A DNA stretch of 64,000 nucleotides from Agromyces sp. Root81 (GTDB taxonomy: Bacteria > Actinomycetota > Actinomycetes > Actinomycetales > Microbacteriaceae). The notes under the pieces were generated by a model. That model searched no databases. It saw nothing but the letters and a program-made list of their open reading frames with translations, and had not been told where the DNA came from. The stretch lies in assembly GCF_001429165.1 (NCBI RefSeq), contig NZ_LMIR01000002.1, positions 771,883 through 835,882 of the forward strand. The letters run 5' to 3'. The position numbers were made by a program, and so were the translations under genes. This document shows positions 41,687 to 56,221 of the stretch, in pieces (the stretch's first letter is position 1; each line of letters opens with the position of its first letter).

Positions 41687-42694
41687 GTGCCGCCCAAGAC
41701 TAAGATCGCTCCCCCCGGAACCGTCTGCGTTCCCGACGCCAGAAAGCTCGGAACCCCTGCGCCCCACGCCATCCTGGCTCCGGCCGACGATCTACCGCTC
41801 CAGACCGTCCATCGCTGGCTCACCCAGCCGGGCCGTGGGACTACGCAAAAACTCACCAACGCAGTGGATGATGCGGTGCGTAACGTGCTCGACGGCGCCC
41901 GCACGCGTCGATTCGACCTAACTTCACCTGAGGTGGATAGAGACGAACGAACGACCGTCGGAACAAAGCTCCAGTATTACGTGCTAGAGGAGTTGGAGCT
42001 TCCGAAGGTCCCCCCGCTCGACACGCTTGTCCTCGACGTTGCAGTAGAGATCAAGACCACCGTGAGCAAATCGGTCATGGTGCCGCCGGAAGGCCAGTGC
42101 GAAGTGACGCTGATGATTCAAATCGATGCGAACCGCCAGCAGTTCGCATCGTGGCTCATGCGCACGCACCGGTCCTGGCTTGGCGGTCCGGCGAAGCCAG
42201 GTCAACGCGACTCGAAGCGTTCGCCGTTCGTCGATGCAGTGCGCTTGTATGCCCTTCCTGTGGTTCCGTGGACTCCACTTCCCCCCGAGCCGCTGCGCCT
42301 CCTCCGGCCCGACGAAGTCGCCGCCGTGTTGCCGCGGAAGGTGTCCAGGACACGCGGAGAAGGCCTCGCTTCACGTCTCACAGCGCTTTTCGGCTACCTA
42401 CCGGAAGTCGTGATCCCGCGAAAGTCGATCCTCACGGTCGGCGCTGGCTTGGACGACCCGCTTCGCCGCGCACGGGAGACCAAGGAGCGCACGTGGGACG
42501 CTCACCAGCTAATCGTCCTGGTGGGGAAGTGGACGTATCAGAAGGAGCTTGCAGCAAGGCTGGGCTTGGATATCTCCGGCGCCGCGTGGGTGGCTGTCAC
42601 GCCCGAGCGCTTCACGAAGTACGGTGAGAGCATTCCCACCCTGACGGAGCTGACGGAGCTGACGGAGCGCTACGGAAAGGTAACGGACAGGTAG
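41687..42694 (+). CDS. NaeI-family type II restriction endonuclease
   Basis: 335 residues. The N-terminal catalytic region contains VLDGARTRRFDL, DERTTVGTKLQYYVLEE, LDTLVLDVAVEIKTT and VMVPPEGQCEV, which align in order and spacing with NaeI (as recalled: catalytic E70, D86, D95, K97). Here these become Gln96, Asp112, Glu121 and Lys123, an ExK variant with the helix Glu replaced. The second half (LTALFGYLPEVVIPRKSI) corresponds to the DNA-binding/topoisomerase-like domain. NaeI cuts GCCGGC after binding two sites; specificity here is inferred. The GTG start is leaderless. It faces the cytosine methyltransferase across a 457-bp gap. Confidence 0.72.
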   Translation: MPPKTKIAPPGTVCVPDARKLGTPAPHAILAPADDLPLQTVHRWLTQPGRGTTQKLTNAVDDAVRNVLDGARTRRFDLTSPEVDRDERTTVGTKLQYYVLEELELPKVPPLDTLVLDVAVEIKTTVSKSVMVPPEGQCEVTLMIQIDANRQQFASWLMRTHRSWLGGPAKPGQRDSKRSPFVDAVRLYALPVVPWTPLPPEPLRLLRPDEVAAVLPRKVSRTRGEGLASRLTALFGYLPEVVIPRKSILTVGAGLDDPLRRARETKERTWDAHQLIVLVGKWTYQKELAARLGLDISGAAWVAVTPERFTKYGESIPTLTELTELTERYGKVTDR

Positions 42695-43151: not shown

Positions 43152-44399
43152 TCAGCTAACGCGACTGCGGAACCTATTCATATAGTCGTGCCGCTCGTGA
43201 TTCTCCTGACCGGTGAAACCCTTGAATTCGCCGAGGCGATACTTGGTTCCGTTGGCCGTTACCTGCTGCTCGAGCTCGAAGTCTTGCGCGAGTAGTGCAA
43301 GTCGGCGCTCTACGGAGGCGTGACTACCCTCGGTGAGCGCGTCGACCAGTCGATCCATGCTGACAAACCCCTCCGCCCCAGCAAGGGCCCGGTAAACGGG
43401 ATCGTGTACGTCCGTGCCATCGACGACCTCACGCGCAACCCCGTCATGTTCGAGTGCGGAGCGAATCGCGCGACCGACGGCCTCCGCAACAGGAGGAGGG
43501 AAGGCGTTGCCGATCTGTCGATACTGCGAAGTCTTGCGGCCAGCGAACTCCCACTCGTCCTCAGCCCGCCAGCCTTGGAGGCGGGCAACCATCTCGACGG
43601 TCAACCTCGGCAACCGCTCAGCGGGGTGCGGGGCGTCCACGTCAGGAGCACTATCGGCTACTCCCTTTCCGTCCACACCAAGCGCCTCCCAGGCTCGCTT
43701 GGCACGGGTCGGCCCGAGATCGGCACCGCCGTGCTTCTTGCTCCCCCCGACCAGGGTCGGCCCGATTCCATTCGCGAGCTTCACCCAGTCGTCGACGTGC
43801 TTCCAACCGTTTGCTGCCATCAAGTCGCGCAAGACCTCGCCGACGGATACTCGTTCGGCGGCAGGCTCAGGCCAGCGGAAGTAGGCGAAGTCTTCCGGCC
43901 GCATCGCAACAAGCACGAATCGAGGCCGGAGCTGCGCGACCCCAAAATCCGCAGCATGAAGCAGCCGCCAGTCCGCGACGTAGCCGAGCTGTGTGAGCCG
44001 ATCGAGCACGCGCTGCCGGTATCCGGAGAATCGATTGCTCGATAGTCCACGCACGTTCTCGAGCATGAGCGCGCGCGGCTTGACGACGGAGACCTGTTCG
44101 ACAGCCCATGCGAACAAATCACGCTCGTCGGAAGATCCGAGCTGCTTCCCCGCGATTGAGAACGGCGGGCACGGCACACCTCCGGCGAGCAGGTCGATGC
44201 CCGTGTAGTCGGCCGGAGTCCACACATCTGCATTCGCAACATCGCCAACTGCGACCGTTCCGCCCGTGTTGAGACGCAACGTCTCCGCCGCGGTCGGGTC
44301 GAGCTCCACCGCGAGCGCGTGTTCGAAGCCGGCCTTATGAAGGCCGAGGGCCTGCCCCCCTGCTCCTGCACAGATCTCTACAACTCGCAGACTTGTCAC
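43152..44399 (-). CDS. C5-cytosine DNA methyltransferase
   Basis: 415 residues. Motif I EICAGAGGQALGL (SAM binding), motif IV GGVPCPPFS with catalytic Cys77, motif VI LENVRGL with Glu114, motif VIII QLRPRF, and motif X QIGNAFPPPVAEA. The target-recognition region lies at about 190-270. An extra roughly 100-residue C-terminal part (HDPVYRALAGAEGFVSMDRL onward) is unusual and may be a recognition or regulatory extension. It protects the host against the NaeI-like enzyme and creates 5mC, whose deamination is repaired with Vsr. GTG start with GGGAGG 5 nt upstream. Divergent from vsr. Confidence 0.9.
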   Translation of the reverse strand: MTSLRVVEICAGAGGQALGLHKAGFEHALAVELDPTAAETLRLNTGGTVAVGDVANADVWTPADYTGIDLLAGGVPCPPFSIAGKQLGSSDERDLFAWAVEQVSVVKPRALMLENVRGLSSNRFSGYRQRVLDRLTQLGYVADWRLLHAADFGVAQLRPRFVLVAMRPEDFAYFRWPEPAAERVSVGEVLRDLMAANGWKHVDDWVKLANGIGPTLVGGSKKHGGADLGPTRAKRAWEALGVDGKGVADSAPDVDAPHPAERLPRLTVEMVARLQGWRAEDEWEFAGRKTSQYRQIGNAFPPPVAEAVGRAIRSALEHDGVAREVVDGTDVHDPVYRALAGAEGFVSMDRLVDALTEGSHASVERRLALLAQDFELEQQVTANGTKYRLGEFKGFTGQENHERHDYMNRFRSRVS

Positions 44400-44488: not shown

Positions 44489-44980
44489 GTGTCTCTTCGA
44501 GAGCATCCTGGACCAGCGCCCAGCGCGTCGACCTCTGGTCGATCGCGCAACATGCGCGCTATCAAGCGTACCGATACGCAGCCCGAGCGAGAGATTCGCT
44601 CCGAGATCCACCGCCGCGGGCTGAGATACCGCAAGGACTTCCGGATCCGGATCGGCGGCGCGTTCGCCCGACCTGATGTCGTGTTCACCCGTCGAAAGAT
44701 CGCGGTCTTCGTCGACGGATGCTTCTGGCACTCGTGCCCGCTCCACGGCAAGCTTCCATCGGTCAATACGAGCTACTGGGCACCGAAGCTTGCACGCACG
44801 CAGGCACGTGACGGCGTCGCCAACGAGCTGCTCGCCACTGCCGGCTGGCAAGTGGTAAGGGTCTGGGAACATGCGTCTCTTTCCTCTGCCGCCGACATCA
44901 TCGAACATGTGTTCGATGATAGACGTCGAGTCGGGCAAGGTGGTCCCGATTCCCCAACCGATCTGATCACTGTCGGTTGA
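44489..44980 (+). CDS. vsr: Very short patch repair (Vsr) endonuclease
   Basis: 163 residues. RNMRAIKRTDTQPEREIRSE opens the conserved N-terminus. RPDVVFTRRKIAVFVDGCFWHSC holds the catalytic Asp and the zinc Cys/His cluster, followed by the NTSYWAPKLARTQARD block and GWQVVRVWEHA. Vsr nicks T:G mismatches produced by deamination of 5mC at the partner methylase site. The GTG at 44489 is chosen because the 20 residues before MRAIK resemble other Vsr N-termini; ATG 44551 is an alternative. It is encoded divergently from the methyltransferase with a 90-bp shared promoter region. Confidence 0.9.
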   Translation: MSLREHPGPAPSASTSGRSRNMRAIKRTDTQPEREIRSEIHRRGLRYRKDFRIRIGGAFARPDVVFTRRKIAVFVDGCFWHSCPLHGKLPSVNTSYWAPKLARTQARDGVANELLATAGWQVVRVWEHASLSSAADIIEHVFDDRRRVGQGGPDSPTDLITVG

Positions 44981-45378: not shown

Positions 45379-46068
45379 TCACTCGATGAGAGTCAAGAGC
45401 TTCGCTCGCTCGGCCGCGGGTAGCGACCTGAGCCCGTTCCACGCTCGGTCGAGCGGCGTCGTCGCTCGAGCGCCCTTCGCCGCCCATCGCTTGATTCGCC
45501 GCAGGTCGTCCGGATCCAGATCCTCAACAAGCGCGCGAACCTCAGGCACGCTATAGGCCCGTGTAGATGCCCCCGAGCGACATCTCTTGCACTCGGTCAC
45601 GAGGACCTGCTCATGGGTGCGGTCAGCCCGCTCGATGGAGCGCCGACTGACGGCAAGCACCGCAGTCTCGGATGGCCGATCTGGATATGCCTCGCCGCCG
45701 GCAATGCCGCATGAGACACACTGGTATCCATTTGCGGCAAAGACCCCATCGCGTACCTTGTTGCTGATCGCCCCAGAATCGCGATCCGCCGCGCGTCGCT
45801 GTTCTGCATCCCATACGTCAACGCCGCGCCGGGTGAAACGCTGTTCCTCCGGCAAGAGCATCACGTCTGTCGAACTGGTGTCCAAGATCCAGCCGTACTC
45901 GCGGAGATCGCGCGCGCGGCGATCAGCCTGAGCAACACCCGGAAAGGCAGCGCGGAGCTGTTCTTTCGTGAACGTGTTGCCCTCGCCAATTTCCTGCACG
46001 AGCCACAGCGCTGCGCGGACCATCGTCCCGCCCTTGAACTGGGGGTCATCCCACCTCGGTTCAGGCAT
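45379..46068 (-). CDS. CxxC/HNH-like protein of the defence island
   Basis: 229 residues. The N-terminal half has a winged-helix-like region (FTKEQLRAAFPGVAQADRRA, then YGWILDTSS). A treble-clef-like centre follows, with CVSC (Cys117/120) and CKRC (Cys160/163) around a 40-residue loop, then a helical tail with PEVRALVEDLDPDDLRRIK. The zinc-knuckle spacing fits HNH nucleases, but the canonical His-His/Asn catalytic set is not obvious in the loop, so it may be DNA-binding only. AGGAG lies 6 nt before the ATG. Divergent from the ParB-like operon by 73 bp. Confidence 0.6.
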   Translation of the reverse strand: MPEPRWDDPQFKGGTMVRAALWLVQEIGEGNTFTKEQLRAAFPGVAQADRRARDLREYGWILDTSSTDVMLLPEEQRFTRRGVDVWDAEQRRAADRDSGAISNKVRDGVFAANGYQCVSCGIAGGEAYPDRPSETAVLAVSRRSIERADRTHEQVLVTECKRCRSGASTRAYSVPEVRALVEDLDPDDLRRIKRWAAKGARATTPLDRAWNGLRSLPAAERAKLLTLIE

Positions 46069-46141: not shown

Positions 46142-47557
46142 GTGGCACAAGCTATTGGCTCACCGCCGCAGGGAGATAAGGTCCGCGAAATCGTTAGCGA
46201 GCGGCTTCGGACTGCTCAGGAGGAGAATGGTGAGAAGCTCACCATTGAGTGGCGCGGCTCGCCCTCCCACCGGCATGTGATTGCGATGCCGATCGAGCTC
46301 CTTCTGTTTAATCCTGACACCCACCGGATCCGAGCCCAGCGCACCCTGGATCCCATAAGGGATGCGAAGCTCGGCGCGGACCCTTGGAGCGAGGAGGGGC
46401 AGGAGTATCTCGACTTCCTGTTGAAGACTCAGCCTTCGTCCCCGGGGAAGACCGATCCCGAGTTTGAGGCACTCCGCGACAGCCTCGACGACTTCGGACA
46501 ACAGCAGCCTGGACTCATCACGCCGGACGGCATTCTCGTCAACGGCAATACACGCTGCGCTGCCCTTCGAGAGCTTGGCCACCGCCACATCCGCGTAGCT
46601 GTCCTCCCGGAGGATACGACCCCGGCGGATGTCAGCACGGTCGAACTTGCGCTCCAGCTCCGACGTGAGAACAAGCGCGACTACTCCTACATCAATCAAC
46701 TCATCGCGATCGAAGAGCAGCTTTCCTTCGGCCAACGGCCAGACCAGATCGCACGGGAGTTTCACATCCGACTCAAGACTCTGGAGCAAGACCGGTGGGT
46801 CTACGCACTGATCCAGGAGGCGATCGCTCGGAGCAAGTCCGGCGACGGGGCTACGCTACGCTTGGTGGATTTTGAGGATCACCAGGAGAAGCTGCGCGAG
46901 CTCTACCGCTCGTACACCTCGGAGGCGACGACGAATCGTGACGCCGCTGAGGCGCTGAAGGAGTCACGACTTGCCCTCATCATGCTGGGCTTTTCGAAGA
47001 CCGACGTCCGTCTCGCCAAGCCGGACTTCTTCGAGAAGTACCTGAAGCCGAAGCTCACGGATGCTCCATCCGTCTTTCAAGAGCCTGCCGTGTCATCGAC
47101 GGTAGCCATACCGGGGCTGACCGTCGCCGTTGCGGATGACGCGCCCGAGGTCAAACGCGCTCGCGAGGTCACCAACGATGTATTGCGGGCTCGCTCGGCT
47201 ACGAGCCTGGGCACGACTGCCGATACGTTGAAGCAAGACGAGTCAGCGAACCTACTTCATTCGCTTCGCGAATCCGCAGACAATGCGCTGATGCTTGCCG
47301 GTCGCGATGAGAGGCTTCGCCAACGCAAGGTGGCAGCTGCCGACAGGCTGTCAGATGCATCGGATGCCATCGGTCTCGCGGCTTCCGATGTCGCCCAGGC
47401 CTTGGCAACCAAGTCGGTCGACGAGGATTCGATCGATGAAGCGCTCGTCACTCTTCGGCATTCACTTCTTGCGCTCGCCCGGCAGGTTGAACGCGCTATT
47501 ACGGGCCCCGGGGAAGGCACGAGATGGCTTACCGAACTGGACCAGGGCACGGTGTGA
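46142..47557 (+). CDS. ParB/Srx-fold protein, first gene of a putative defence trio
   Basis: 471 residues from GTG 46142. After about 60 residues comes a ParB-N-like region: MPIELLLFNPDTHRIR, LRDSLDDFGQQQPGLIT and ILVNGNTRCAALRELG, the last being the nucleotide-binding NGNTR loop (compare GERRxxA of ParB and DGQHR of DndB/SspE relatives). A helical region follows (INQLIAIEEQLSFGQRPDQIARE looks like the ParB HTH), then a long C-terminal helical domain with predicted coiled coils. It may be a DNA-sensing NTPase or a DNA-binding loader for the helicase. No par locus or parS is nearby. Stop overlaps the next start (GTGA). Confidence 0.7.
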   Translation: MAQAIGSPPQGDKVREIVSERLRTAQEENGEKLTIEWRGSPSHRHVIAMPIELLLFNPDTHRIRAQRTLDPIRDAKLGADPWSEEGQEYLDFLLKTQPSSPGKTDPEFEALRDSLDDFGQQQPGLITPDGILVNGNTRCAALRELGHRHIRVAVLPEDTTPADVSTVELALQLRRENKRDYSYINQLIAIEEQLSFGQRPDQIAREFHIRLKTLEQDRWVYALIQEAIARSKSGDGATLRLVDFEDHQEKLRELYRSYTSEATTNRDAAEALKESRLALIMLGFSKTDVRLAKPDFFEKYLKPKLTDAPSVFQEPAVSSTVAIPGLTVAVADDAPEVKRAREVTNDVLRARSATSLGTTADTLKQDESANLLHSLRESADNALMLAGRDERLRQRKVAAADRLSDASDAIGLAASDVAQALATKSVDEDSIDEALVTLRHSLLALARQVERAITGPGEGTRWLTELDQGTV

Positions 47558-49368
47558 GCAGCGACTCCAGCCTCCACATTTCGTTCGCGGCCACAGCAAC
47601 GCGGGTCAGACTCGCTGCTGCAACTCACTTCGAAGAGGAGCTGAGGCGACTCGTTCCTAGGTTCCGGACGGTGGTACAGCCAACGCCAGGTCTCGCTGAG
47701 CTTGACCTAGATGACTTCCTTACCAACTTGCTCGTCTTGGCTTCGTGGAGCGACCCGGGCTCAGTGAGCTGGGACATTGATATCCAGCAGCTCGCCGAGT
47801 CCTCAGTTCGCGACGCCAACCGCGCCGCCACTCTTCTGGATGACCAATCCGGGGGCGCCACGGTCGACGATTTGGACGCCACCCTCGGCGGTAATTGGTG
47901 CGGTGAACTTACGGACTTCCAGCGCCGCGATCTCAAAAAGCTCTTGGCGCTCGGGCACGGCGCGAATTTTTCGGTGCCAGGTGCCGGAAAGACGCGCGTC
48001 GCGCTTGGGGTCTACGCGGCCTCGAAAGCAACGAAGACCGTAGAGCGTCTCCTCGTCGTTGGTCCGAAGTCTTGCTACGACGCCTGGCGCGAGGAGACTG
48101 AAGATTGCTTTTCAACGCCACCGAGAGTTGCGGTGCTCGACGGGGTGATTCCTCTCAGCACCGAAATCCTTCTTGTCAACTACGAGCGTCTCGACGGATC
48201 GCTCGGGCTGCTGTCGTCGTGGATGACCGCTCGTCCCACCATGCTGGTCCTCGACGAGGCCCACCGCATGAAACTCGGAGCTCAGGGTACGTACGGAAGC
48301 GCCTGCCTTTCGATTGGCCCTCGCGCGCGTCGTCGACTCATACTTACAGGTACTCCTGCACCCAACGGTGTTCGTGACCTCGAGAACCTGATGGGATTCG
48401 TATGGCCCGGCCACGGCCGACAGTCCGTCACGCGAGCTGTGGCCGGCGGCAACCTCCGCCAAGCCAGTTCGGCGCTGCGACCGCTCTTCACACGTACTAC
48501 GAAACATGAACTCGGACTGCCACCGCAGATTCCACTGATTCGACGCCTCGAGCTTCCGCCGCTTCACCGCGAAATTTACGACGCACTAGTGAACCAGATG
48601 TCGCCGCGAGCGCGAACCTCTCAGCGCGACTTGGAAGCGCTGGGGAAAGTGCTGATGTACCTGTTGATGGCTGCAACGAGCCCGGCGCTACTATCTGTCG
48701 GGGGGACACGTTACGAACCGCTCGCCTACCGTGTTCCCCCCCTACAGATACCTGAGAACGCTCCTTTATTCGAACTCATGCGAGATCTGCCCACGTACGA
48801 GCTGTCACCGAAGTACGCGGAGACACTCAGCATCGTTGCCGAAAATGCGCGACAAGGTCGTAAGACATTGGTCTGGTCGACCTTTGTTCGCTCGCTTACG
48901 ACACTCCATCGGTTGCTCGCGCCATACAACCCCGCACTGGTTCATGGTGGGACTCCAGATCGCGAGGAAGAGATTCGTCGATTCCGCGCGGATCCCGACT
49001 GCATGGTACTGCTCTCGAACCCTGCGACGCTTGGCGAAGGCATCAGTCTCCATCACGAATGCAACGATGCCGTCTACGTTGACCGTGACTTTGCTGCGGG
49101 TCGCTTCCTACAGTCGCTCGATCGAATCCATCGGCTCGGGCTTCCTGAAGGAGCGACGACGCGTGTGACAGTCCTGGCTTCTGAGGGAACCATCGATGAG
49201 GTGGTTGAGCAGCGGCTGGACCTCAAACTCCGATTCATGGGGCAGATCCTCGACGACGCTAATGTCGAGCAACTCGGTGACCTAGACGAAGAGCCGAGCG
49301 TTGCCGGCGGCCTCGATGCGGCCGACGTGAGCGCAATGTTGGGGCACCTGCATGTCGATCCCTCCTGA
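47554..49368 (+). CDS. SNF2-like helicase, second gene of the trio
   Basis: 604 residues. The first 130 are unassigned. Motif I SVPGAGKTRVALG, motif II LVLDEAHRMK, motif III LTGTPAPNG, then a C-terminal RecA-like lobe with KTLVWSTFVRSL, NPATLGEGISLHH and motif VI QSLDRIHRLG. This is a superfamily-2 SNF2/Rad54-type ATPase that translocates on duplex DNA. The GTG at 47554 overlaps the ParB-like stop; a longer start at 47524 adds ten residues. Base use is less GC-rich than the core genes. It probably works with the flanking ParB-like and nuclease-like proteins. Confidence 0.85.
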   Translation: MSSDSSLHISFAATATRVRLAAATHFEEELRRLVPRFRTVVQPTPGLAELDLDDFLTNLLVLASWSDPGSVSWDIDIQQLAESSVRDANRAATLLDDQSGGATVDDLDATLGGNWCGELTDFQRRDLKKLLALGHGANFSVPGAGKTRVALGVYAASKATKTVERLLVVGPKSCYDAWREETEDCFSTPPRVAVLDGVIPLSTEILLVNYERLDGSLGLLSSWMTARPTMLVLDEAHRMKLGAQGTYGSACLSIGPRARRRLILTGTPAPNGVRDLENLMGFVWPGHGRQSVTRAVAGGNLRQASSALRPLFTRTTKHELGLPPQIPLIRRLELPPLHREIYDALVNQMSPRARTSQRDLEALGKVLMYLLMAATSPALLSVGGTRYEPLAYRVPPLQIPENAPLFELMRDLPTYELSPKYAETLSIVAENARQGRKTLVWSTFVRSLTTLHRLLAPYNPALVHGGTPDREEEIRRFRADPDCMVLLSNPATLGEGISLHHECNDAVYVDRDFAAGRFLQSLDRIHRLGLPEGATTRVTVLASEGTIDEVVEQRLDLKLRFMGQILDDANVEQLGDLDEEPSVAGGLDAADVSAMLGHLHVDPS

Positions 49369-50194
49369 GCCGATCATCAGAGGCGCCCTACGGTGGCTCG
49401 AGCTCATTCCGACTACCGGCGTTCATCGTGCGCGTGCATTGTTTCTGTCATCGAAGGAGTACGCGGACCTTACTCCAACGCAATACTCTGAGTCGCTGGG
49501 TTGGGTGGAACGGGCCGGTCTCCTGGAGGCCGCACCGTTGGCAAGGACTCCCGACATCCTCTTCGAGGCGGTCATCCTCGGCGGCGCTCCCCCATGGCTT
49601 CCCGATGCTGACCTTCTCGTGCAGGATCCTGCCGAGATTCCTGAGGACGCGCTTTCTGCTGCCGAAGCACTCGGAGTCGGACCCACCGCGGCTCTCGCAT
49701 GCATCCACCGCGCGTGGGGCAAGGTTGATACAGAGTCCCGCCGCGAGGTGGGTGACGCTGGTGAGCTCGAGGTTCTGCGGCACCTGTCCACGCGTCCCGG
49801 CGTGACGGTCGATCACGTAGCGGGGTGGTCTGACGCGTTTGGGTATGACATTGCAGTCCTGGATGGCTTCCGCTCGTGTCATCTCGAGGTGAAGGCGACC
49901 ACTCGCGAGAACCGACTATCGCTCTACCTATCCCGGAACGAGTTTGAGACGATGCGGGCAGATCCGTCGTGGAGTCTCGCGATGGTGGTGCTCAATCGGG
50001 CTCGACAGCTCGCAAAGGTCTATTCGATCGATCGAGCTTGGATTCAAATGGCGGCGCCCGCCGATACCCCGGGCGGCGGGCGATGGTCGTCCGCACGGTT
50101 CGACATCCCAGAAGGTGCCTCCAGCCCAGGGATCCCCGCCCTTGCGCCGTTCATCGACAGCCAGAGCTCGCCGCTACTGACCGGCTCGAATTAG
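49352..50194 (+). CDS. DUF3883 PD-(D/E)xK-like protein, third gene of the trio
   Basis: 280 residues. The N-terminal 110 form a winged-helix-like region (SKEYADLTPTQYSESLGWVE). The C-terminal DUF3883-type domain has REVGDAGELEVLRHL (Glu138), FGYDIAV (Asp166) and CHLEVKATT (Glu179, Lys181), the arrangement of a PD-(D/E)xK nuclease core, then LYLSRNEFETM. The ATG lies 17 bp inside the helicase gene, showing tight coupling. DUF3883 domains are common in restriction and anti-phage loci. Nuclease activity is inferred. Confidence 0.78.
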   Translation: MSIPPEPIIRGALRWLELIPTTGVHRARALFLSSKEYADLTPTQYSESLGWVERAGLLEAAPLARTPDILFEAVILGGAPPWLPDADLLVQDPAEIPEDALSAAEALGVGPTAALACIHRAWGKVDTESRREVGDAGELEVLRHLSTRPGVTVDHVAGWSDAFGYDIAVLDGFRSCHLEVKATTRENRLSLYLSRNEFETMRADPSWSLAMVVLNRARQLAKVYSIDRAWIQMAAPADTPGGGRWSSARFDIPEGASSPGIPALAPFIDSQSSPLLTGSN

Positions 50195-50344: not shown

Positions 50345-50905
50345 TCAGTCGAAGATGCCGTCGAGGATGCTCCCGATGACCAGGCCGCCGAGGATGCCGC
50401 CCATCATGTCGCCACCCCACTGTCCGCGGTCCTGCGGTCGCGACGAGTCGATGTCGCGCGCGCGAGCTGCAGCGCCCCGGCCGCGAGGTGCGCCACACGC
50501 CGGGCCATCACCATCGCCGGCTCGCGGTGATCTTCGCCGATGACGGTGACGGTCGCCGCCGGCCTGCCCGGGCAGCGGTCTAGGTCAACCCGCACGCGCT
50601 CGGATTCGGCGAGCCGGGTGCGGGCGCCGGCGCCGCTCCAGCCGCGGTGGCAGGCGATAACGTCGTGGGCGACGGCGAGGTGACGGTCGGCGTCGTCGAT
50701 GGCGTGGTGCACATGCTCGAGCGGCGGGATCGGGCGCGCAGCGCGCTCGCGGGCCGCAGCGATCGCGGCATCCAGCCCCGAGTTCGCGTCGCGGAGGCTA
50801 CTGAGCTGCGCGAAGAGGTCGGTTTTGACGCCGGCCGCCGGGAGGGCGGCAAGAGCAGCTGCAGCGAGGCGATCGCGGCCGTGACGCCGGCCGTCTGGTA
50901 CGCGA
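50345..50905 (-). pseudogene. Truncated, frameshifted copy of the coiled-coil gene
   Basis: Matches the C-terminal third of the protein encoded at 52317-53666 (shared SSLRDANSGLDAAIAAARER, IPPLEHVHHAIDDAD) far better than the intervening paralogue. One frameshift lies near 50860 (QTAGVTAAIASLQ in one frame, LAALPAAGVKTD in the next). Another near 50460 is a one-base loss in a GCGC run (LQLAR, then the DIDSSRPQDRGQW frame). The original C-terminus (ILGGLVIGSILDGIFD, stop at 50345) survives without its Gly-rich spacer. The 5' two-thirds is gone. Confidence 0.75.
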
Positions 50906-50963
50906 CATAGCGCGCATGCACCGCCGGCCGACGTCCGTTCAGGCATCGCTCGCGGCTCCTGTG

Positions 50964-52211
50964 TCATTGGTCGAAGTTCGCCCGGCCCTGCAAGCGAGAC
51001 GTGTGGATGTCGTGCCGCGCCAGCTGCATGGATTCGCCCGCCAGCGATGCGACACGCCTGGCCATCGCGATCACCTGCTCTCGATGATCCTGGTCCGTCA
51101 CCGTCATCGTCGTCACGGATCCGCCCAGGAAGTGGCCGAGATCGATCCTGATGCGCTCGGACTCGGCCAGTCGTGTACGGGCCGTAGGGCCGATCCAGCC
51201 CGGGTGGGCGGCGAGCGCATCACGAGCGATGTCGAGCTGTCGGTCTGCGTCTTTGATCGCGTGGTGCAGGTGGTCCACCAGCGGAATCAGATCTGTCGCG
51301 CGCTCGCGGGCGGCCGTGATGGCGGCATCCAACACCGTGCGAGCCTCGCGCAGTCGGCTCAGGTGGGCGAACGGGTCGGTGTTGACGCCGGTCGGCGGGA
51401 GGGCCGCGAGGGCTGCCTGCAGCTCGCCGATCGCATCCGCGACGCGACGGGATGGGGGCTCTTCGAGCGCCGCGGCGAGGTCCCGACGGGACTCGTCGAC
51501 GATCGCAGCCAGCGCGGACTCCGCTCGCAACGCCTCGACCTCGAGGCTCTCCACCGCATCGAGGAGAGCTGCTGCTCGGCGCACCGATTCGACGGATGCC
51601 TCGAGCGCGACGCTGGCCTGCTCGCGCTCTCCGGCCGACCGCTGCCGCTCGGCCACACGCAGGCTGTGCTCGGCGAATCCGAGCAACTGATCGGCCTCCG
51701 CAGGGTTGGCCTCTACCTGGCCCAGCGCCTCGGGCGCATAGCGGGCGGCAAGCCGTTCGACGGTGTCGCCGGCGACGGGGATGCGTGCGCGCAGGCTCGC
51801 GACATCCCCTCGCACGCCGGCGATGATCTCGGGGGCATGCCGCGCCCGCCGCATCCGGTCGGTGAGCGCGGAGATGTGCTCGTCGAGCACGTCGTCGACC
51901 CATCCGCACAGCTCCACGATGCGCAGGTAACGGGTGCGCACCTCGTCGGCGGTGCCGGGAACCGCATCGTGATTGAGCCGGTTCAAACGGAACGCCTCAC
52001 TCAGGCGTCTGCGCACCGCGACGAGCGCCTCGCTCAGTTGTGTGGTGGCGTCGGCCCCCAGCTCGGCCTCAGCGAAGGCGAGCTCGTCGGCGGCGAAGCG
52101 GATGCGGTCGTCTGTGGCGACAAGGACCTGTCCAGCCTGCTTCGCCAAATCGGCGTCGTGGACCTCGAGATGTTGCGCAGGGCGTCTGCGCCCGACCCGG
52201 AACCCGGCCAT
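50964..52211 (-). CDS. Coiled-coil protein, paralogue B
   Basis: 415 residues, mostly alpha-helical with heptad-like Ala/Leu/Glu/Arg patterns (LAFAEAELGADATTQLSEAL, RYAPEALGQVEANPAEADQL). Co-linear with the downstream-strand neighbour at 52317-53666 but ending HDIHTSRLQGRANFDQ, without the Gly-rich C-terminal hairpin of that copy. From memory these helical repeats resemble the part that follows the TPM (DUF477) domain in actinobacterial TPM proteins; no TPM domain is present. TACGAT lies 5 nt before the ATG, suggesting a leaderless mRNA. Confidence 0.65.
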   Translation of the reverse strand: MAGFRVGRRRPAQHLEVHDADLAKQAGQVLVATDDRIRFAADELAFAEAELGADATTQLSEALVAVRRRLSEAFRLNRLNHDAVPGTADEVRTRYLRIVELCGWVDDVLDEHISALTDRMRRARHAPEIIAGVRGDVASLRARIPVAGDTVERLAARYAPEALGQVEANPAEADQLLGFAEHSLRVAERQRSAGEREQASVALEASVESVRRAAALLDAVESLEVEALRAESALAAIVDESRRDLAAALEEPPSRRVADAIGELQAALAALPPTGVNTDPFAHLSRLREARTVLDAAITAARERATDLIPLVDHLHHAIKDADRQLDIARDALAAHPGWIGPTARTRLAESERIRIDLGHFLGGSVTTMTVTDQDHREQVIAMARRVASLAGESMQLARHDIHTSRLQGRANFDQ

Positions 52212-52316
52212 GCTCCATCGTAAGTTCGCCGCTCAGAGCACGCTAGGGAGCACGGGAATCACGCATGCCATGACCTGGCTTGGCTCGTGCCCGGCACGCG
52301 CCAGGCGGCATCCGTA

Positions 52317-53666
52317 TTAGTCGAACATCCCGTCGAGGATGCTCCCGATGACCAGCCCGCCGAGGATCCCGCCCATCACATCCGACGAGCCGCCGCCGCG
52401 GCGACCGCCGCCCCAGCCGTCGCCGCCCCACTGCCCACGATCCTGCGGTCGCGAAGAGTCGATGTCGCGCTGCGCGAGCTGCAGCGCCTCTGCCGCGAGG
52501 TGCGCGACGCGCCGTGCCATCAGCATCGCCTGCTCGCGATGGTCCTCATCGATGACGCTGACGGTCGCAGCGGGCGTGCCGAGGAAGCGGTCGAGGTCGA
52601 CCCGCACACGCTCCGACTCGGCCAGGCGAGTGCGGGCGTCGGCGCCGATCCAGCCGCGGTGGCCGGCGATGACGTCGCGGGCGACCGCGAGCTGCCGGTC
52701 AGCGTCGTCGATGGCGTGGTGCACGTGTTCGAGCGGCGGGATCGGGCGCGCGGCGCGCTCACGGGCCGCCGCGATCGCGGCATCCAGCCCGCTGTTCGCG
52801 TCACGAAGGCTACTGAGCTGCGCGAACGGATCGGTGTTGACGCCCGCCGCAGGGAGGGCGGCGAGCGCACCTTGAAGTGAGGCGATCGCGGCCGTCACGC
52901 CGGCTGTCTGCGGCTCCTTGAGCGCGACGACGACGTCGCCGCGGGAATCCTCGACGATCGCCGCCAACGTCGACTCGGCGCGCAGCGCCTCGACCTCGAA
53001 GGTCTCCACTGCGTCGAGCAGGGTCGCCGCCCGGCGCACCGATTCCGTCGAAGCCTCGAGCGCGAGGTTGGCCTGCTCGCGCTGCCCGGCCTCACGCCGG
53101 CGCTCGGCCACGCCGGCACTGTGCTCGGCGAATCCGAGCAGCTGCTCGGCCTGGGCGGGGTTGGCCTCCACCTGGGCGAGCGCCTCGGGCGCGTAGCGGG
53201 CGGCGAGCCGTTCGTTGGTCTCGCGGGCCTGCGGGATGCGGGTGCGGAGGCGCGCGGCATCCGCTCGCACGCCGGCGATGATCTCGGGAGCCCGACGCGC
53301 TCGCGCGATCTTGTCGGCGAGGGTCGACATGTGCTCGTCGAGCACGTCTTCGGCCCAGTCGCAGAGCTGTACGATGCGCGCGTTGCGCTGCCGCAGCTCT
53401 TCGGCGGTGTCGGGGACCTCGTCGTGGTTCAGCTGGTTCAGCCGGAACGCCTCGCCCAGGTGCTCCTTCACCGCGGCGAGCGCCGTGCTCAGCTCCGCGG
53501 TCGCCTCGTGGCCGAGCTCGGCATCGGCGAAGGCGAGCTCGTCGGCGGTGACGCGCACTCGCTCGTCGGCGGCGACCAGGGCGGTGCCCGCCCGCTGCGC
53601 CAGGACGGCATCCTGAGCGTCGAGTTCTTGCTCTTCACGCTTTCGCTTGCCCCAGAATCCGGCCAT
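52317..53666 (-). CDS. Coiled-coil protein, paralogue A, with Gly-rich C-terminus
   Basis: 449 residues. Starts MAGFWGKRKREEQELDAQDA; helical repeats fill residues 15-400. A Gly/Arg/Ser linker (GGDGWGGGRRGGGSSDV) then leads to a conserved hydrophobic end, MGGILGGLVIGSILDGMFD, which could insert in or associate with the membrane. The Gly-rich plus GGLVIG ending is also typical of TPM-domain proteins, whose catalytic-like N-terminal domain is missing here. This is the complete member of the three-copy family. Its leaderless promoter is TAGGAT with 7 nt to the ATG. Function unknown. Confidence 0.7.
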   Translation of the reverse strand: MAGFWGKRKREEQELDAQDAVLAQRAGTALVAADERVRVTADELAFADAELGHEATAELSTALAAVKEHLGEAFRLNQLNHDEVPDTAEELRQRNARIVQLCDWAEDVLDEHMSTLADKIARARRAPEIIAGVRADAARLRTRIPQARETNERLAARYAPEALAQVEANPAQAEQLLGFAEHSAGVAERRREAGQREQANLALEASTESVRRAATLLDAVETFEVEALRAESTLAAIVEDSRGDVVVALKEPQTAGVTAAIASLQGALAALPAAGVNTDPFAQLSSLRDANSGLDAAIAAARERAARPIPPLEHVHHAIDDADRQLAVARDVIAGHRGWIGADARTRLAESERVRVDLDRFLGTPAATVSVIDEDHREQAMLMARRVAHLAAEALQLAQRDIDSSRPQDRGQWGGDGWGGGRRGGGSSDVMGGILGGLVIGSILDGMFD

Positions 53667-53679
53667 GCCATTGATCCTA
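53667..53679 (-). promoter_or_regulatory. Leaderless promoter of paralogue A
   Basis: Minus-strand TAGGAT, seven nucleotides, then the ATG at 53666. Confidence 0.6.
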
Positions 53680-53830
53680 GGCGTGGCGCTGGTCGGCACA
53701 CCGGACGGGAGGCCTAAATCAGGCGGCGACGATCGGGCCCACCGCTGTTTCGTTACCGGACGCGACAGACCACCGCTGTCAAGCTGTTCGTTGGAACCTG
53801 CTGTCGGCGGTGCACGATATGAAAAGTGCT

Positions 53831-55142: not shown

Positions 55143-55658
55143 ATGAACACTGCTGCAGTCGCACCGGATCGACGGCGGAAACCCATCAGTCCTGCGCACT
55201 CGTCCGAAATCGCGGAGCTCGCCCGGTTCGTGGAACGCGAACCGGCAGGTACTCCCCGACTCGTGGGCCCAGACAACGCCGCCGTCGAACTGCCAGAGGA
55301 GATCTACCGAGTCCTCACCATGGTCGTCGAGGAGATGCGCGCCGGCAACGCTGTAAGCGTCGTTCCAATCTCGCAACGTATTAGCACCCAAGAGGCCGCT
55401 GAGCTGCTCGGCATCAGCAGGCCGACTCTGATCCGTTTGCTCGATGCCGGTGAAATCCCTTACGACAAGCCAAGTCGGCATCGCCGACTGCAGCTCGCCG
55501 ATGTTCTCACCTACCGTGAGAGATCGCACGCAGGTACTCGCTCTGCACTCGATCTGCTGACCGCGGAGGCAAGCTCGCTCGGACTCTATGAGGATGAAGC
55601 GTCCCAGTACACCGAGGCACTGCGCGCCGCGAAGCGCAGTTCGAGCGGTGCAGACTGA
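55143..55658 (+). CDS. HTH (excisionase-type) antitoxin
   Basis: 171 residues. A MerR/excisionase-type helix-turn-helix sits at about 80-125: ISTQEAAELLGISRPTLIRLL, then GEIPYDKPSRHRRLQLADV. The N-terminal 80 residues are Pro/Glu-rich, and a C-terminal helical region may bind the toxin. It is followed 2 nt later by a PIN-domain gene, the standard order antitoxin then toxin, and would repress its own promoter. GGTGAGGTG precedes the ATG. Confidence 0.8.
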   Translation: MNTAAVAPDRRRKPISPAHSSEIAELARFVEREPAGTPRLVGPDNAAVELPEEIYRVLTMVVEEMRAGNAVSVVPISQRISTQEAAELLGISRPTLIRLLDAGEIPYDKPSRHRRLQLADVLTYRERSHAGTRSALDLLTAEASSLGLYEDEASQYTEALRAAKRSSSGAD

Positions 55659-55660
55659 GG

Positions 55661-56221
55661 ATGGCACTGTACTCGGCGGTGCTGGATGCCTGCGTGATCG
55701 TGCCCGTCTCAATCTGCGACACACATCTCCGACTCGCCGAACGTCTGCTGTTTCGCCCGATGTGGAGCGCTCACATCCTTATAGAAGCGAGGCACGCGGT
55801 CCTCCGCGTTCACCCCGAATTGGATCCGGCTGCAATCGACCGACGCTTTCACCTGATGAACGAATCTTTCCCCGATGCCGAAGTAAGGCAGTACGAACGA
55901 CTCATCGACGGCATCGACCTCCCGGACCCTGGTGATCGGCATGTGCTTGCCGCCGCGATCCGAGCCGGTGCTAATGCCGTGATCACAGCCAACCTTCGCG
56001 ACTTCCCCTCCGAAGTCGCGAACCAGTACGGAATCGACGTCATTGGGCCGGACGACTTCCTGCTCGACCAGCTTGATATGGCGAGCAGCCACGTGATCGA
56101 AACAATCCGCGAGCAGGCGGACGCCACGAAGCATCCACCACTCAGCCTCGACGATCTGCTCGTCAAACTCGCGCGAGCTGGCGTGCCGCAGTTCGCCGAT
56201 GAGGTCGCTAGGCGACTCTGA
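55661..56221 (+). CDS. PIN-domain ribonuclease toxin
   Basis: 186 residues. The first acidic residue is in SAVLDACVIV, the second in LIEARHAV, and the third/fourth in DPGDRHVLAAAIRAGA. NAVITANLRDFP is the fourth conserved PIN strand. PIN toxins are Mg-dependent RNases. The 50-residue C-terminal tail (SLDDLLVKLARAGVPQFADE) is longer than in VapC and matches the group paired with excisionase-type antitoxins. ATG 55661 lies 2 nt after the antitoxin stop. Confidence 0.85.
   Translation: MALYSAVLDACVIVPVSICDTHLRLAERLLFRPMWSAHILIEARHAVLRVHPELDPAAIDRRFHLMNESFPDAEVRQYERLIDGIDLPDPGDRHVLAAAIRAGANAVITANLRDFPSEVANQYGIDVIGPDDFLLDQLDMASSHVIETIREQADATKHPPLSLDDLLVKLARAGVPQFADEVARRL

Follow-up and report, generated by a model that had tools for sequence, protein, structure and literature searches.

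Gene organization of the locus

We analyzed a 64,000-nucleotide stretch of the genome of Agromyces sp. Root81 (contig NZ_LMIR01000002.1; hereafter, the window), in which three overlapping genes at 46142-50194 encode a ParB-like protein, an SNF2-type ATPase, and a NOV_C (DUF3883) protein. They adjoin a restriction-modification (R-M) set consisting of a NaeI-type restriction endonuclease (REase), a C5-cytosine DNA methyltransferase (MTase), and the repair endonuclease Vsr (Table 1). The first-pass annotation of this DNA had described the overlaps, a ParB fold in the first protein, an SNF2 helicase, the residue spacing of PD-(D/E)xK nucleases in the third protein, and the R-M set, all of which were borne out. 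The ParB-like open reading frame (ORF) starts with GTG and is preceded by AGGAGGGG. The SNF2 frame is open from an ATG at 47524; an alternative start, GTG at 47554, shares the four bases GTGA with the ParB stop codon, and a similar 4-bp overlap exists on a Streptomyces plasmid (L011). The SNF2 and NOV_C genes overlap by 17 bp. The Walker A and DExH motifs of SNF2 were invariant in a nine-sequence alignment. A profile search of the PDB gave no match for NOV_C.

Table 1. Genes of the R-M locus in the window, followed by gene architectures in which the ParB-SNF2 pair was found elsewhere.
Feature	Coordinates	Strand	Remarks
NaeI-type type II REase	41687..42694	+	PF09126 67.1 bits; D..ExK kept; extra, possibly live REase
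C5-cytosine DNA MTase	43152..44399	-	PF00145 205.7 bits; motifs intact
Vsr very-short-patch-repair endonuclease	44489..44980	+	TIGR00632 129.1 bits; Pfam 68.6 bits; DGCFWH..H motif intact
HNH4, 229 aa	45379..46068	-	Winged helix and zinc knuckle; HNH-endonuclease relative without catalytic His/Asn; proposed target-recognition subunit
ParB/KorB/Noc-fold protein	46142..47557	+	N-terminal ParB domain with GNxR loop, helix-turn-helix (HTH), long helical C-terminal part
SNF2-type ATPase	47554..49368	+	SNF2-rel_dom 50.8 bits, Helicase_C 27.6 bits, both above Pfam cut-off
NOV_C/DUF3883 PD-(D/E)XK nuclease (predicted)	49352..50194	+	PF13020 28.4 bits (above cut-off); E..D..ExK intact (GDAGE, GYDI, LEVK)
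HNH4-ParB-SNF2-[NOV_C] with C5 MTase and Vsr			Mostly Actinomycetota
288-aa protein-ParB-SNF2-NOV_C			Alphaproteobacterial plasmid loci; C5 MTase nearby in most
N4/N6 MTase-BglII-like-ParB-SNF2-NOV_C			Paracoccus and viral-collection contigs
BanI/DpnII-like protein-ParB-SNF2-NOV_C with C5 MTase			Streptococcal prophage and other viral-collection contigs
C5 MTase, ParB, PLD-SNF2, Sau3AI C-terminal domain, Vsr			Lactiplantibacillus
Type III Mod-Res-ParB-SNF2			L119 and L127 by Pfam; like-sized genes in L120 and L122
DUF1156-like MTase-ParB-SNF2-NOV_C	L141 2617-9325	-	Both MTase Pfam matches just below cut-off

The ParB-like protein was identified through a profile of 52 family members, which matched Thermus Spo0J (1vz0) with an E value of 3.8e-6 across the ParB domain and the HTH. 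The AlphaFold model of the window protein (pLDDT 92.4) had ParB, KorB, and Noc as its best PDB matches, several of which contain a CTP analogue or CDP; it aligned with 7bnr at Z 11.6 over 93 residues (root-mean-square deviation 1.6) and with Noc 7nfu_B at Z 9.8 over 196 residues (4.9). By both profile and model, the N-terminal ParB domain and HTH have the fold of the ParB/KorB/Noc family of CTP-dependent clamps. The window protein departs from these clamps in several ways: its loop reads GNxR where 1vz0 has GERR, its C-terminal part is long and helical, its gene is linked to restriction genes, and Pfam gives no match. G135, N136, R138, E168, Q172, and other residues are invariant in the 52 sequences, an invariance that in itself is no proof of CTP binding. 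No PADLOC model covers the ParB-like protein; the window copy was matched only weakly, by MTase_II (17.6 bits, E 3e-4, over the ParB loop) and JetA (12.6 bits, E 0.01), and three relatives had no PADLOC match at E 0.01.

The ParB-SNF2 pair recurs with a methyltransferase and an REase-like partner

Related loci were collected with an alignment of the helicase, as the ParB alignment had no conserved stretch fit to seed a contig scan. The search of 84,980 genomes yielded at least 490 confirmed relatives, of which the 80 most like the helicase of the window were kept; these are mostly from Actinomycetota. Further loci came from viral contigs (24) and from nine plasmid records matching the ParB-like protein, eight of which were opened. 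Copies from the window's own genome (L001, L019) were left out, as were L123, L125, and L126 from the list of third genes.

In all 80 genome loci and in 22 of the 24 viral-collection loci, ParB immediately precedes SNF2; of the two exceptions, L125 begins at the end of a contig, and in L126 the helicase is incomplete, its N-terminal part being absent. NOV_C was detected by hidden Markov model (HMM) in 35 of the 80 genome loci and is intact in 33, being truncated in L058 and L069. The order of the three genes does recur in several phyla beside restriction genes, in support of the first-pass reading. The trio is nevertheless not the stand-alone unit that the first-pass annotation had seen in it: the obligate core is ParB-SNF2, and NOV_C is otherwise replaced or absent. 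HMM searches of the same loci found the C5 MTase in 78, Vsr in 75, and in all 80 the family, here called HNH4, of the gene at 45379-46068. That gene had been counted among decayed flanking genes, a view ruled out by its conservation; HNH4 is the most constant further member of the unit. NaeI-type REases were present in 17 of the 80 loci, MORC-like genes in 10, and Z1 genes likewise in 10. The C5 MTase background was about 0.007 per 22 kb (78 match fragments in 240 Mb, from 30 genomes hand-picked among those with these loci, the loci's own enzymes included), and its presence in the cluster, as in the window and in 78 of the 80 loci, exceeds chance. No MTase was seen in the fetched stretches of L011 and L091, and that of L058 ends at a contig end.

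Other lineages carry the pair with other partners (Table 1). In a tree of ParB plus SNF2 (selected sequences, midpoint root), the HNH4, 288-aa, BglII-like, BanI-like, and type III groups were each monophyletic with a support of 1.0. A PLDc_2 domain was found at the N-terminus of SNF2 in L016 (29.5 bits); L018 has a weaker match there (25.5 bits), under the cut-off of 27. Among the type III loci, L120 has a split Mod gene and L122 an interrupted SNF2 gene. L141, in which no REase-like gene was seen, is possibly a minimal system. In L140 (4765-14366, minus strand), ParB-SNF2 lies beside an unnamed 437-aa protein and a helicase-like gene, as well as two genes classified by eye, one of 616 aa resembling an adenine methylase and one resembling DUF262; this is another R-M type carrying the module.

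Judged from these gene orders, ParB and SNF2 form a constant pair, accompanied by a DNA methyltransferase and an REase-like protein. An independent anti-phage system that merely accumulates in R-M islands, as the first-pass annotation proposed, would fit the occurrence of SNF2 and NOV_C in named defense systems, the low-scoring matches of the Zorya, Dpd, DISARM, and PD-T4-1 models, and the L011 trio, which has no nearby MTase. We hold this to be improbable, since each lineage preserves the arrangement of the module with its MTase and REase-like partner, and the loss of the partner's active site, described below, tracks the module.

Vsr repairs T:G mismatches that arise by deamination of 5-methylcytosine (5mC), and in 12 loci (L045, L047, L050, and nine more Streptomyces loci) it occupies the third-gene slot behind SNF2, where others have NOV_C. 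This position, together with the 75 Vsr-bearing loci, might indicate a 5mC mutation-repair apparatus in which ParB-SNF2 scans DNA for T:G mismatches and serves Vsr. However, no Vsr was found in the fetched stretches of the N4/N6 MTase plus BglII-like, type III, and DUF1156-like MTase lineages, and NOV_C would be left unexplained, so that we consider this role very unlikely.

The module is rare in its class, occurring in 9 of 394 evenly drawn genomes, the window's own included, and 36 other Agromyces genomes gave only ParB-domain matches of at most 26 bits, from which we conclude that the locus was probably acquired horizontally. The ParB fold could also be read as a sign of plasmid or chromosome partition, with the restriction genes as neighbors by chance. 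The rare and scattered distribution argues against such a function, as does the fact that no ParA-like family was recognized among the conserved neighbors (where it was not sought by profile), and partition is hardly credible here.

REase-like partners of four families have lost their active sites beside the module

The HNH4 copy nearest to the module keeps the catalytic His or Asn in 0 of 81 cases (80 loci and the window). The zinc cysteines are retained in all 81, so the change is not free decay. This nearest copy lies 2.7 kb from the module in L033 and L089; of seven further copies at least 3 kb away in the same loci, five keep His. Among the 394 class genomes, 18 contain HNH4: nine of nine with ParB-SNF2 lack both catalytic residues, whereas eight of nine without the module keep His, with G603 as the exception (two-sided Fisher p 4e-4, with or without the window's own genome). 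The survey profile was built from module-linked copies only, so that distant live copies may be missed, and a second G677 fragment (L172) was left out. In a regional identity comparison that omitted G677 and G603, both kept in the eight-of-nine count, dead HNH4 proteins had the winged helix better conserved (mean identity 62%, against 46% for the knuckle), whereas live ones had the HNH region better conserved (53% vs 47%). A module-free relative, L142, has a canonical HNH motif (PF01844 31.2 bits), and the MTase of its R-M system, in another genus, is 77% identical to that of the window. PADLOC REase_II matched the L142 protein at 29.2 bits and did not match the dead HNH4 tested. The HNH4 model (pLDDT 92.2) had no significant Foldseek match; residues 99-203 aligned with the HNH nucleases Cap5 and EndoVII at VIA-align Z 4-6, which is suggestive only.

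In the 288-aa PD-(D/E)XK partner, both D and E of the D..ExK motif are lost in five of five module loci, whereas an acidic pair is present in seven of seven stand-alone relatives whose only companion is a C5 MTase (D for E in L154; p 1.3e-3). The full-length MTases of the module-plus and module-minus loci are 54-73% identical. Rhizobium plasmid pRL11 (L012, 265-11152) carries both states, a live C5 MTase-REase pair and a dead REase of the same family with ParB-SNF2-NOV_C, and is a natural matched pair. In the BglII-like partner, the catalytic E is replaced by Q (six) or C (two) in all eight proteins, which represent about four distinct lineages; the E aligned to the lost residue is present in BstYI and BamHI. 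A plasmid search for stand-alone BglII-like relatives returned only the query, and PF09195 supplied the comparison: the acidic residues, assessed partly by eye, are kept in 15 of 15 members from loci without ParB (15 of 17 genomes, the other two having yielded no locus).

The partner in Lactiplantibacillus, a single case, consists only of the C-terminal domain of Sau3AI (2reu; 4pxg residues 261-509), which we take to be the non-catalytic one; the D..ELK motif of Sau3AI falls in the missing N-terminal part. Four of four stand-alone Sau3AI homologues beside dcm are full length. Sau3AI-like matches occurred in 15 plasmid records; in addition to the record of the query, eight of them were inspected, and six of the eight entered the alignment with the query. 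MTases from module-plus and module-minus loci are 47-69% identical. An earlier candidate reading of the L016 protein as a point-mutated MutH domain was rejected, the protein being the Sau3AI C-terminal domain. A second protein of this C-terminal type lies about 12 kb from ParB-SNF2 on an Exiguobacterium plasmid (L018, L151). The PADLOC REase_II model scored 67.3 bits for the 288-aa protein, 31.5 and 13.7 for the two BanI-like proteins tested, and 165.4 for the Sau3AI domain, and matched one of three BglII-like proteins tested (33.2 bits).

As read from these alignments, the REase-like partner stems from at least four REase families, and in each the active site has gone, either through point substitution or because the catalytic domain is missing, one of the four (Sau3AI) being represented by a single case.

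A converted R-M system as the favored interpretation

On balance, we favor the view that the locus is an R-M system converted to ATP-dependent restriction. Parallel inactivation of several unrelated REases next to one and the same ATPase pair, while the MTase persists, is best explained if the REase is retained as a reader of its site and the module does the cutting. An intact nuclease motif comes from NOV_C in many lineages and probably from the PLD domain on SNF2 in others. The sensor-translocase-nuclease scheme of the first-pass annotation is reasonable in outline; it placed recognition in ParB, where the dead REase is the more probable site, and it left the MTase and the REase-like partner out of the unit. 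These results suggest that broken restriction enzymes have repeatedly been reused by bacteria as target-finders of an ATP-driven cutting machine.

In the proposed mechanism, the MTase would mark self DNA, and the dead REase (HNH4 in the window) would still bind the same site when unmethylated and recruit the ParB-like protein, which may close on the DNA as an NTP-dependent clamp. SNF2 would load with ParB and then translocate, and NOV_C, or the PLD domain on SNF2, would cut the DNA. Partner binding, ParB clamping, SNF2 translocation, and NOV_C cutting are here extrapolated from what is known of the respective families. The NaeI-type REase was considered as the partner of the module and dropped; all 18 NaeI-type proteins in a motif alignment keep D..(D/E)xK, for which reason it is treated as a separate arm, and it may form a second restriction arm in the window. 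Its activity there is uncertain, because the window protein and three others have Q (GTKLQ) further upstream where most NaeI-type proteins have E.

A more far-reaching proposal, which we offer tentatively, is that of a distinct class of ATP-dependent restriction created by domestication of type II R-M systems. In this view, cutting would pass to a portable ParB-SNF2-nuclease engine, REases of unrelated folds would decay in parallel into interchangeable site readers, and the ParB-like protein would link target and motor as a sliding clamp gated by NTP. If true, ATP-dependent restriction can be built from ordinary type II systems, catalytically dead REases gain a function, and the ParB clamp fold enters restriction. 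It would also explain annotated 'restriction enzymes' that would test inactive, and dependence of an REase gene on the module could be predicted from its sequence alone, by the state of the active site.

Several observations weigh against conversion of the R-M system. The independent active-site losses number only about four, the single Sau3AI case among them, because the death of HNH4 was probably one event and may be ancestral. The BanI-like partner looks degenerate by eye and is not counted among the losses, because no live stand-alone relative was found for comparison, plasmid search included. DNA binding by the dead partners is inferred from their conservation. Neither NOV_C nor NaeI is present in 36 of the 80 genome loci (37 if truncated NOV_C is not counted), for which Vsr is the first candidate cutter. 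The Streptomyces plasmid L011 carries the trio with no MTase or HNH4 within 17 kb, and a lone Sau3AI C-terminal domain occurs in E. faecalis (L150), where neither an MTase nor the module lies within 6 kb. In L012, the live REase-MTase pair lies about 4 kb upstream of the module, and the two may cross-talk. Finally, the type III Res protein keeps PD..ExK in four loci (L119, L120, L122, L127), and no NOV_C was found beside type III ParB-SNF2 loci by Pfam searches of L119 and L127; partner death is therefore not universal, and the module there may only assist.

Such an assisting role could extend to the other lineages: SNF2 would strip proteins from DNA, or ParB-SNF2-NOV_C would degrade DNA after the cut of a live REase, the dead REase serving as a regulator or decoy that limits self-cutting. 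SNF2 proteins remodel protein-DNA complexes, which counts in favor of this idea, as do the intact D..(D/E)xK of the NaeI-type REases in 17 of the 80 loci, the intact type III Res beside ParB-SNF2, and the further nuclease genes near the module in L012 and other loci. In the eight BglII-like loci, however, no other searched REase family was found (unnamed ORFs remain), and L141 lacks any visible REase-like gene. We regard an assisting role as unlikely, though less so than the anti-phage, repair, and partition alternatives.

Comparison with known systems

The nuclease of CglI and NgoAVII is a separate PLD-type protein, and the proteins of the window gave no PLD match. According to the accessible portions of two reports, these systems resemble the present one in combining a DNA methyltransferase, a nuclease subunit, and a separate helicase-like ATPase, and their cutting is ATP-driven and starts at the recognition site (PMC4267653, PMC5737866). 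CglI differs in using an ATPase of the DEAD family together with its own endonuclease subunit, and the same portions name no ParB, SNF2, or targeting subunit derived from a dead type II REase (PMC4267653, PMC5737866). As far as these texts extend, CglI/NgoAVII is the nearest working analogue.

Type II R-M systems (NaeI, BglII, Sau3AI, HNH) share with the module loci a homologous REase-like protein, a homologous methyltransferase (compared for the HNH, Sau3AI, and 288-aa types), and often Vsr. Type II REases cut without ATP. The module loci differ in that the partner's active site is lost (HNH4, 288-aa, and BglII-like types, the extra NaeI of the window keeping its motif) and that ParB-SNF2, often with NOV_C or PLD, is added.

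SNF2-family ATPases also occur in DISARM, Zorya type I, and Dpd, but the window SNF2 scores far below the equivalog cut-offs (DISARM DrmD 28.8 of 610, ZorD 11.6 of 1500, DpdE 22.1 of 500 bits). DISARM combines a DrmD-type helicase with drmA, drmB, and drmC; in a PADLOC search of 17 window genes, DrmB and DrmC had no match and DrmA matched at 11.7 bits on SNF2 only. Druantia has a DruE-type helicase with partners, and no DruE match was found in the same genes (for the MTase, among the best 25 of 62 matches). The C5 MTase itself best matched DruM (694.5 bits), followed by MTase_II (584.2 bits); it also matched DrmMII of DISARM (112.7 bits), far below other models. Zorya type I consists of the ZorA/ZorB motor and ZorD, and PADLOC gave ZorD at 55.4 bits on the helicase part only, one ZorA at 18.8 bits (52317-53699), and no ZorB. 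Four proteins of the ParB-like family had no DndB or Ssp match in PADLOC, and the Pfam-scanned window genes had no type III Mod-type match, only a generic ResIII on SNF2 (24.0 bits). With scores this low, the earlier failure to place the trio in a named system stands.

The nearest neighborhood precedent is found in the MORC/paraMORC operons, for which C5 methylase, Vsr, HNH, and SNF2-type or other SF2 helicases are described in one neighborhood in the portions of the survey available to us (Iyer et al., 2008; PMC2292703). Their ATPase core is instead of the GHKL type, and 'ParB' has no occurrence in the paper text as accessed (PMC2292703). Within the accessible parts of two further papers, DUF3883 is called a novel REase domain (PMC3710099) and a PLD-SNF2 protein adjoins a type IIG-like gene on a Lactococcus plasmid (PMC6098607). 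A full-text literature search, with most subscription papers and all bioRxiv preprints outside its scope, turned up no account of ParB-SNF2 together with dead REases, and the system is therefore counted as a new form of R-M.

Neighboring genes

Directly downstream of the trio, three tandem genes on the minus strand (50404-53699) encode proteins of 187, 415, and 460 aa that look paralogous by eye, the first being short; none of them has a Pfam family. Further on, at 55143-56221 (plus strand), an HTH_17 protein, weakly matched by PADLOC mad1, adjoins a PIN_3-domain protein, and the two are likely a toxin-antitoxin pair.

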